In this document: positions 57,459 to 59,930 of the stretch, piece by piece | How the letters are laid out: every line of letters begins with the position of its first letter | Numbering within the stretch: position 1 is the first letter of the stretch | DNA from: Kibdelosporangium persicum | GTDB taxonomy: Bacteria; Actinomycetota; Actinomycetes; Mycobacteriales; Pseudonocardiaceae | DNA length: 64,000 nucleotides | Direction of reading: 5' to 3' | NCBI RefSeq assembly: GCF_013280595.1 | Contig: NZ_JAAATY010000011.1 | Coordinates: 124,001-188,000 of the forward strand | Made by a program: the position numbers and the translations under genes | Notes under the pieces: generated by a model | Databases searched by the model: none | Seen by the model: only the letters and a program-made list of their open reading frames with translations | Told to the model about the DNA's origin: nothing

Positions 57459-58715
57459 TCAGAAGCCGAGTGCTTTGTGGACGGCGTCAGCCGACGGCGG
57501 GACGGTGGCGCGCGGGCCGACCTTGGTCTCGATGGCGTCCAAGGTCTTCAGTCCGTCACCGGTGATCAGCAGGACCGTCTCGGCCTCCGGGTCGAGCTTG
57601 CCGGTCTCGATCAGCTTCTTCGCCGTCGCGACGGTCACGCCGCCCGCGGTCTCGGTGAAGATGCCCTCGGTACGGGCCAGCAACCGGATGCCCTCGACGA
57701 CTTCCTCGTCACTGACGTCCTCGATCGCGCCCTGGGTGCGGTTGACGACATCGAGCACGTACGGGCCGTCGGCGGGGGCGCCGATGGCGAGCGAACGCGC
57801 GATGGTGTCCGGGCGCACCGGCTGGACCACGTCGTGGCCCGCCTTGTACGCCGCCGACACCGGCGAGCATCCGGTGGCCTGCGCGCCGAAGACCCGGTAC
57901 GGCGTCTCGTCGACGAGCCCGAGCGAGCCGAGCTCGCGGAAACCCTTGTCCACCTTGGTCAACTGCGCACCGGAGGCGATCGGCACGACCACCTGCTCAG
58001 GCAGCCGCCAGCCGAGCTGCTCGGCGATCTCGAACGCCAGGGTCTTGGACCCTTCGGCGTAGTACGGCCGGACGTTGACGTTCACGAACGCCCAGTCCTC
58101 GTGCTCCGCGGCCAGTTCGGTGGCCAGGCGGTTCACGTCGTCGTAGTTGCCTTCGACGGCGATCAGCGCGCCGTCGTACACCGCCGTGGTGAGAATCTTG
58201 GCCCGCTCAAGGGAGGACGGGATCAGCACGACCGACTCCCAGCCGGCGCGGGCGGCCGCGGCGGCGGTGGCGTTGGCCAGATTGCCGGTCGACGGGCAGG
58301 CCAGCACGCGGAAACCAAGCTGGCGCGCGGCGGCCAGCGCGACGGCGACGACGCGGTCCTTGAAGGAGTGCGTCGGGTTTCCGGTGTCGTCCTTGACCCA
58401 CAGGCTCTTCACGCCGAGCGCGGCGGCGAGCCGGTCGGCCTTCACCAGCCGGGTCAGGCCGGGCTCGGTGTTCGGGTGGCTGTCCACATCGGACGGAACC
58501 GGGAGCAGGTCACGGTAGCGCCAGATGTTCTTGGGGCCCGCTTCGATGTCCTCCCGCCGGATCGGGCCGAACGAGTACTTGACCTCGAGCGGGCCGAAAC
58601 ACTCCGAACAGGCGAACTCCGGGGCGAGGGGGATCTGGTGACCGCACTCGCGGCACGACAGTGCCTGGGCAGGTCCGAGGTCGAAGGTGGTGGGCGCACC
58701 GACTGTGGTCGTCAT
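57459..58715 (-). CDS. thrC: Threonine synthase
   Basis: PLP enzyme that converts O-phosphohomoserine to threonine, 418 residues. The N-terminus holds a zinc-ribbon-like pair of CxxC motifs (CRECGHQIP; CSECFGP) typical of the ThrC class with that extension. The PLP Lys lies in NPTHSFKDRVVA, the phosphate loop is STGNLANATA and the ITGDGLKT end is conserved. The ATG start has AGGAG ten bases upstream; that site lies at the edge of a SAM-I riboswitch, so SAM should repress translation. hom and thrB are not adjacent. Confidence 0.96.
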   Translation of the reverse strand: MTTTVGAPTTFDLGPAQALSCRECGHQIPLAPEFACSECFGPLEVKYSFGPIRREDIEAGPKNIWRYRDLLPVPSDVDSHPNTEPGLTRLVKADRLAAALGVKSLWVKDDTGNPTHSFKDRVVAVALAAARQLGFRVLACPSTGNLANATAAAAARAGWESVVLIPSSLERAKILTTAVYDGALIAVEGNYDDVNRLATELAAEHEDWAFVNVNVRPYYAEGSKTLAFEIAEQLGWRLPEQVVVPIASGAQLTKVDKGFRELGSLGLVDETPYRVFGAQATGCSPVSAAYKAGHDVVQPVRPDTIARSLAIGAPADGPYVLDVVNRTQGAIEDVSDEEVVEGIRLLARTEGIFTETAGGVTVATAKKLIETGKLDPEAETVLLITGDGLKTLDAIETKVGPRATVPPSADAVHKALGF

Positions 58716-58728
58716 CGCGAGGTATCTC

Positions 58729-58839
58729 CTCATCTTTCCGGCTTTCGCCGGTCGGAATTGGCACCGTGTTCGCCACCTGAACGGTGTGCGCCGGTTGCCG
58801 GGGCTTCTTCGGGCCGATCCCTCTGCCCCTCTGGATGAG
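58729..58839 (-). promoter_or_regulatory. SAM-I (S-box) riboswitch controlling thrC
   Basis: Read on the minus strand, the leader has the S-box parts in order. The closing stem P1 pairs CTCATC (58839-58834) with GATGAG (58734-58729). Then come AGAGGGGCAGAGGGAT, GGCCCGAAGAAGCC, CCGGCAACC, the diagnostic core GGTGCCAATTCC (58765-58754) and a P4 hairpin CCGGC-GAAA-GCCGG. These match the SAM-I consensus; GGTGCCAATTCC argues against SAM-IV. The right arm of P1 runs into GAGGAG, so its last two bases are the first two of the thrC ribosome binding site AGGAG (58730-58726). SAM binding would stabilize P1 and hide that site. Confidence 0.88.
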
Positions 58840-58949
58840 CAATATTCGGTTGTGGGTCTTTCAGCCGGACACGTTACGGCACGGCGGTTACCCGATGCCA
58901 CCCAAGGCGCCCACTATCCGGGAGCGCGGCCCGTGGCAGGATGCTGGGT

Positions 58950-59930
58950 GTGAACGCCCCGGCCGTGACGCCCGAGCCGCTGCAACTGGTGCTGGGCGAG
59001 GAAGAGCTACTGGTAGACCGCGCGGTCCGGGCCGCGCTGGAAGCCGCCCGGCTGGCCGACCCGACAGCGGACCTGACCAGGGTCCGGGTGGCTGATCTCA
59101 CAACCCCGCTGCTGACCGAGCTGGTCAGCCCGTCGCTGTTCGCCGAGGCCCGCGTGGTCGTGCTGGAGGCGGCGCACGAGGCGAGCCAGGAGATCGCCGA
59201 CGCGATCATCTCCTACGGCAGGAATCCGGCGGACGGTGTCGTGCTCGTGGTGCTGCATTCCGGCGGCGGGCGCAGCAAGGTGGCCAAGGCGTTGCCCGCG
59301 GCGCTGAAGAAGGCGGGCGCGAAGGTGACCGAGTGCCCCAAGCTGACCAAGGCTTCGGAGCGTGAGGAGTTCGTCCGGCACGAGATCCGCGTCGCGGGCG
59401 GCCGCACCGATGCCGCGGCCGTCGCCGCCCTGATCGAGACCGTCGGCTCGGACCTGCGCGAGCTCGCGTCCGCCGCGGCGCAGCTGGTCGCCGACACGGA
59501 CGGCAAGGTCGACGAGAACGCCGTCCGCCGCTACCACAACGGCCGCGCCGAGGTGAACGGCTTCGCCGTCGCGGAGAAGGCGGTCGTCGGTGACCTGCCC
59601 GGAGCCCTCGAGGCACTCCGCTGGGCCATGCAACTCGGCGTGCCGCACGTCCTCGTCGCGGACGCCCTCGCCGACGCCGTGCGCACCGTCGCGCGGGTTG
59701 CCCCGCTGGGCCGGATCGACCCCTTCAAATCAGCCGGTGAGCTGGGCATGCCGCCCTGGAAGATCCGCAAGGCCATGGGCCAGACCCGAGGCTGGCACCC
59801 GGCCGGACTGGCCGACGCGATGCAGATCGTCGCCCAGCTCAACGCCGACGTGAAAGGCGCCGCGGCCGACCCGGGCTACGCGCTGGAACTCGCCATCATC
59901 AAGATCGCCCGCGCCCACCGCCGCGCCTGA
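58950..59930 (+). CDS. holA: DNA polymerase III subunit delta
   Basis: Clamp-loader subunit that opens the beta clamp, about 326 residues. The N-terminal domain starts PLQLVLGEEELLVDRAVRAAL, with the conserved LGEE, and contains VLEAAHEASQEIADAIISYG. DLRELASAAAQLVADTDGKVDENAV is typical of domain II, and KIRKAMGQTRGWHPAGLADAMQIVAQL of the C-terminal collar. GTG is chosen as start; an ATG nine bases earlier is an alternative. In M. tuberculosis it likewise lies between comEC and rpsT. It converges with rpsT. Confidence 0.94.
   Translation: MNAPAVTPEPLQLVLGEEELLVDRAVRAALEAARLADPTADLTRVRVADLTTPLLTELVSPSLFAEARVVVLEAAHEASQEIADAIISYGRNPADGVVLVVLHSGGGRSKVAKALPAALKKAGAKVTECPKLTKASEREEFVRHEIRVAGGRTDAAAVAALIETVGSDLRELASAAAQLVADTDGKVDENAVRRYHNGRAEVNGFAVAEKAVVGDLPGALEALRWAMQLGVPHVLVADALADAVRTVARVAPLGRIDPFKSAGELGMPPWKIRKAMGQTRGWHPAGLADAMQIVAQLNADVKGAAADPGYALELAIIKIARAHRRA

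Follow-up and report, generated by a model that had tools for sequence, protein, structure and literature searches.

The window analysed here, a 64-kb stretch of DNA (64,000 nucleotides) from Kibdelosporangium persicum, contains on its minus strand a gene (57459-58715) whose 418-residue product is named ThrC, threonine synthase, by standard models, and which the original prediction placed under the control of an S-box riboswitch in its leader. A cmscan search against Rfam located a SAM-I (S-box) aptamer, RF00162, at 58841-58727 (-), with a score of 85.8 bits against a gathering cut-off of 44.4 bits and an E-value of 6.8e-19. The alignment covers positions 1-108 of the 108-position model without truncation, so the predicted aptamer is full-length and its covariance-model score is above threshold. 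RF00162 was the sole Rfam match at the gathering threshold in the whole window. No match to SAM-IV (RF00634) was reported in the window and, since cmscan displays the best member of each clan, SAM-IV could only score lower; this identity was rejected. The core motifs GGCCCGAAGAAGCC, CCGGCAACC and GGTGCCAATTCC are all present in the leader as had been described, as is the P4 hairpin with its GAAA loop (CCGGC-GAAA-GCCGG, 58738-58751), and P1 to P4 together with the conserved junction core align to RF00162 with few pairs marked as non-standard, one of them in P1. Judged by its sequence and covariance score, the aptamer appears to be a genuine SAM-I switch that would bind SAM.

The core of P1 is formed by CTCATC (58839-58834) and GATGAG (58734-58729), the latter continuing into the Shine-Dalgarno sequence AGGAG (58730-58726), again as predicted, with only 2 nt (AG) shared between them. 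AGGAG lies 10 nt from the ATG (58715-58713), and the 3' end of the aptamer is 11 nt upstream of this start codon. Beyond the core, the next P1 pair in the cmscan alignment is a G opposite a G, which is marked as non-standard.

Association of the switch with one group of orthologs

The pairing of this switch with the ortholog group of the window gene is near-invariable. All 80 named ortholog loci, the best 80 of at least 534 confirmed relatives, have RF00162 immediately upstream (59.9-85 bits). Genes of the window type, defined by at least 379 bits and at least 60% identity (all other matches reached at most 222.1 bits), are present in 106 of 148 class genomes, and 104 of these 106 genes are directly preceded by RF00162; the other two are gene pieces lacking the 5' end, which start at query residues 149 and 160. 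Likewise, of 115 listed RF00162 matches from these genomes, 104 precede a window-type gene. At the level of the order, the gene occurs in 19 of 21 genomes and the switch in 17 of 18 fetched loci, the remaining locus having only 2 bases of upstream sequence. We found no support for the idea that the element is a chance resemblance or a decayed switch, and the E-value combined with its presence in all 80 named loci excludes chance, making this explanation close to impossible in our estimation.

The 11 listed RF00162 matches that do not precede a listed gene of this type, three of which score under the cut-off, occur in G002, G025, G031, G033, G055, G065, G074, G076, G084 and G116 and on contig C47 of K. 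persicum itself. This last match (locus L002, 1589-1501 (-), 59 bits) is a second SAM-I riboswitch of the genome, located upstream of a gene (1328-303 (-)) encoding an ABC ATPase with a NIL domain, which is MetN-like but falls under the MetN cut-off (203.3 against 499.7 bits); the gene is followed by an ORF that is presumably ispE-like.

Identity of the regulated gene

The product of the window gene is a fold-type-II PLP enzyme (PF00291) that scores above the cut-off of TIGR00260, the NCBIfam model for threonine synthase (273.3 against 167.1 bits), and its best-scoring solved structures are threonine synthases, as expected if this were the true threonine synthase gene, with threonine synthesis under repression by SAM. 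However, the same genome contains a separate thrC on another contig, which scores higher on TIGR00260 (298.2 against 274 bits) and lies between an ORF resembling homoserine dehydrogenase, which directly precedes it, and one resembling homoserine kinase; from their sequence we take these two to be hom and thrB, giving a hom-thrC-thrB cluster. The window protein is 37% identical to this ThrC over the matched part. In a tree of 103 rows, built by a quick method and containing some long branches, a single branch sets apart each of three groups: 85 window-type rows (support 100), 11 of ThrC (99) and 7 of a third paralog (86). The window protein neither groups with the hom-cluster ThrC nor keeps the positions that are constant in ThrC: at several positions where at least 90% of the 11 ThrC rows agree, at least 97% of the 85 window-type rows differ from them, with G replaced by H beside the PLP lysine motif (NPTGSFKDRG in ThrC, NPTHSFKDRV in window-type rows) and Y219 in place of ThrC R166. 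This distinct clade, its altered pocket positions and a distribution across the class sample that is complementary to that of metX (see below) make a true threonine synthase quite unlikely, and thrC was rejected as the target of the switch on the basis of the separate thrC, the tree and the metX pattern.

A third threonine-synthase-like paralog is encoded on contig C14 of the genome (locus L012, 1453-2715 (-); NF006050, 591.1 against 303 bits), and similar genes are found in some other class genomes. The window protein also has four N-terminal cysteines (residues 21, 24, 36 and 39) in a zinc-ribbon-like arrangement, which are kept in 56-58 of the 85 window-type rows and replaced in the rest.

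PMC12172450 credits Hasebe et al. (2024, AEM 90:e01247-24) with finding MetM, a homocysteine synthase, in Streptomyces and, on the same authority, mentions a SAM riboswitch ahead of metM in S. albulus, an organism that MetM keeps from becoming auxotrophic for methionine; by this account, a SAM riboswitch on metM is already on record for Streptomyces. Among the literature matches listed, in a search that reached few subscription papers, only PMC12172450 treated MetM as an enzyme. The Streptomyces leader, as described there, resembles that of the window in that a threonine-synthase-like homocysteine synthase gene follows a SAM riboswitch, whereas the window locus belongs by its tree position to the Pseudonocardiaceae, has no downstream metO and shares its genome with metY-metX. 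A second parallel comes from the re-annotation of S. lividans TK24, where the portion of PMC8079986 that includes Table 3 lists RF00162 before SLIV_16930-SLIV_16925 under 'Threonine biosynthesis', bearing out the mention, in the original prediction, of similar annotations in related genera; 21 of the 22 leader elements listed there were transcribed. In both organisms a SAM-I element precedes a gene filed as threonine biosynthesis, but the S. lividans transcript comprises two genes, probably metM-metO, whereas in the window there is a single gene.

In the tree, which held no named Streptomyces MetM, the window protein shares a clade with four orthologs from the class genomes, two of which (in G018 and G089) are followed by a gene of the MetO clade; the window protein is a putative member of the MetM clade. 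The window gene is best read as metM, in which case SAM would repress methionine synthesis. Phosphohomoserine is indeed the node common to the threonine and methionine branches, as had been pointed out, yet the S-box is no longer remarkable for acting on thrC, because a methionine gene as target conforms to the usual S-box pattern, and the apparently odd control of threonine by SAM is explained away. These results suggest that metM is commonly misnamed thrC in this class, in which the riboswitch itself marks the paralog. What is new here is the extent of the linkage between switch and metM, and the absence, in this lineage, of metO from the neighbourhood of metM.

The enzyme might alternatively be bifunctional, making both threonine and homocysteine, with the switch tuning how phosphohomoserine is split. 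There is some precedent in PMC12172450, where a cyanobacterial protein sharing 51.6% identity with S. albulus MetM is described as chiefly a threonine synthase that also has deaminase activity and falls short of a full MetM, although with sulfide this MetM-like ThrC reportedly gave an unidentified product near methionine. Against this, 103 of the 106 genomes with a window-type gene contain at least one further threonine-synthase-like match (E up to 1e-30), which could be ThrC or the third paralog, most of these matches not being listed singly, and we consider bifunctionality unlikely.

Mode of control by the switch

The P1 core is nearly invariant across 81 leaders (5' arm CTCATC in 80 and TTCATC in one; 3' arm GATGAG in 74, GATGGG in six and GATGAC in one), and its end lies 8-19 nt from the start codon in 80 of them, the 88-nt distance in the remaining leader (L077) probably resulting from a misplaced start codon. 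A Shine-Dalgarno-like match starts inside the Rfam 3' arm of P1 in 48 of the 81 leaders and 0-3 nt beyond this arm in 31, while two leaders gave no match; these counts may be in error by one or two, since two of the start codons called lay at anomalous offsets (0 and 86). One group of leaders has AAGGA just past P1. This geometry of P1 relative to the start codon favours translational OFF control.

ViennaRNA modelling was applied to the same leaders. When P1 is favoured in the window leader, the AG of AGGAG is predicted to lie in P1, and in the minimum-energy fold the GAG (58728-58726) pairs with a CUC (58719-58721) before the start, forming a mini-hairpin that would close the remainder of the Shine-Dalgarno sequence; this prediction is not common to all relatives (L031 differs). 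The modelled accessibility (unpaired value) of the window Shine-Dalgarno sequence is 0.06 with P1 formed and 0.40 with P1 opened, but the AUG follows the opposite trend (0.80 formed, 0.13 opened). Over the 81 leaders, the Shine-Dalgarno sequence is less accessible with P1 formed in only 47 (mean 0.27 versus 0.38), and the mean accessibility of the start codon rises (0.56 versus 0.41). Because the direction is inconsistent, the modelling does not prove the mode of control. The behaviour of the window start codon in the model would suit a switch in which SAM turns the same gene ON by freeing the start, although the Shine-Dalgarno sequence becomes less accessible in the same fold, and the SAM-I switches known from methionine genes turn expression OFF. 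Control of the same gene by transcription termination would require a site that we did not find: the consensus scan detected no terminator-like site at 58600-59050, and the 8-19 nt between the P1 core and the start in 80 of 81 leaders leave little room for one. Terminator control was rejected from this consensus scan, and we regard either departure from translational OFF control, termination or an ON switch, as improbable. A promoter scan found no promoter in the window leader.

As a further observation, the window leader and those of L033, L038 and L069 have CCUC or UUCUC just before the start, which, once P1 has opened, could base-pair with the GAGG of its 3' arm and might thereby form an alternative structure.

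Control of the window gene by the switch is likely to be translational. The original prediction of translational repression of threonine synthesis survives in part: with P1 at the ribosome binding site and no terminator-like site, translation is the likeliest level of control, but threonine synthase as the target is not supported, given the separate thrC and a clade that fits metM. The aptamer architecture, its core and a methionine-pathway target are shared with the S-box riboswitches of Bacillota, which act mostly by terminators, whereas the P1 of the window sits at the ribosome binding site. We consider it probable that the SAM-I riboswitch controls translation of metM, whose product, a threonine synthase paralog, would convert O-phosphohomoserine to homocysteine on the way to methionine; SAM binding, the translational mode and the MetM reaction are what we infer for K. 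persicum. When SAM is plentiful, the aptamer would close P1, and with it a 3' arm that borders and partly overlaps the Shine-Dalgarno sequence, so that ribosomes could not start; the level of MetM would then drop, leaving phosphohomoserine for the true ThrC. At low SAM, P1 would open and MetM would be made.

Methionine routes and the possible sulfur donor of MetM

The distribution of metX, called from matches to TIGR01392 at E up to 1e-50 (the curated cut-off was passed by no genome, nor by 14 controls), is complementary to that of the window-type gene: of the 106 genomes that carry this gene, 43 have metX, against 35 of the 42 that do not carry it. The 148 class genomes comprise 63 with metM alone, 43 with both genes, 35 with metX alone and 7 with neither (Fisher p 2.9e-6, a value that ignores the relatedness of the genomes, some of which are incomplete). 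A genome scored as lacking metX does not necessarily lack an acylation route, as metA, encoding homoserine succinyltransferase, lay outside the search. This distribution fits a gene supplying homocysteine. The K. persicum genome itself contains an O-acetylhomoserine sulfhydrylase-like gene (metY) adjoining metX (NF005872, 823.4 against 703 bits; NF047917, 515.8 against 475 bits), as well as a cystathionine gamma-synthase-like (metB-like) gene (NF005871, 662 against 513 bits), and metM is therefore one of at least two possible methionine routes in this organism.

The downstream partner of metM is reportedly metO, which encodes a sulfur carrier. No metO was found beside the window metM, either in the window or by tblastn, and the gene that comes next is convergently oriented. 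Of the 80 named loci (the best 80 of at least 534 relatives), 22 have a MetO-like carrier gene after metM, and none of these 22 is titled or placed as Pseudonocardiales, whereas the named loci without metO after metM are Pseudonocardiales by title or tree place, except for the Nakamurella locus L075. In the class loci L114-L142, metO-like genes follow metM in 14 of 29, and 11 of the 15 loci without one come from genomes with no metX match, several of these being incomplete. No MetO or CysO match was found beside metM in the 18 order-level loci, of which 17 have at least 1260 nt of downstream sequence and one has 234 nt. Many lineages thus keep metM without the described partner alongside, and the sulfur donor in these lineages is a testable point.

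Three ThiS-family genes are present in the K. persicum genome: one between Mec-like and CysM-like ORFs, one between thiO- and thiG-like ORFs and a third, MoaD-like, whose product ends in PPFAGG, all of these names being our own presumptive assignments. Cysteine synthesis by the proteins we take to be Mec, CysO and CysM resembles metM-metO in that a sulfur carrier ending in GG feeds a fold-type-II PLP enzyme. The K. persicum CysO is 55.6% identical to a MetO, but a tree separates 30 rows of CysO from 30 of MetO (support 100/100). With no MetO found, the donor would presumably be CysO or free sulfide, and CysO is the obvious candidate in this lineage. We tentatively suggest, as a possibility well short of probable, that in Pseudonocardiaceae, and perhaps in other lineages in which metM has no metO beside it, MetM draws its sulfur from CysO, such that cysteine and methionine would share a single thiocarboxylate pool, with the SAM-I switch of metM as the valve that apportions it between them.

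An extra MetO/CysO-like carrier gene was not found in the K. persicum genome (G000). Among 20 further ThiS-family genes from genomes without metO, three show 37-44% identity to MetO or CysO along some 90 residues, namely L240 (G012), L244 (G162) and L254 (G165), all located away from metM, and two more (G155 and G159) match more weakly, implying that some genomes without metO hold another carrier elsewhere.
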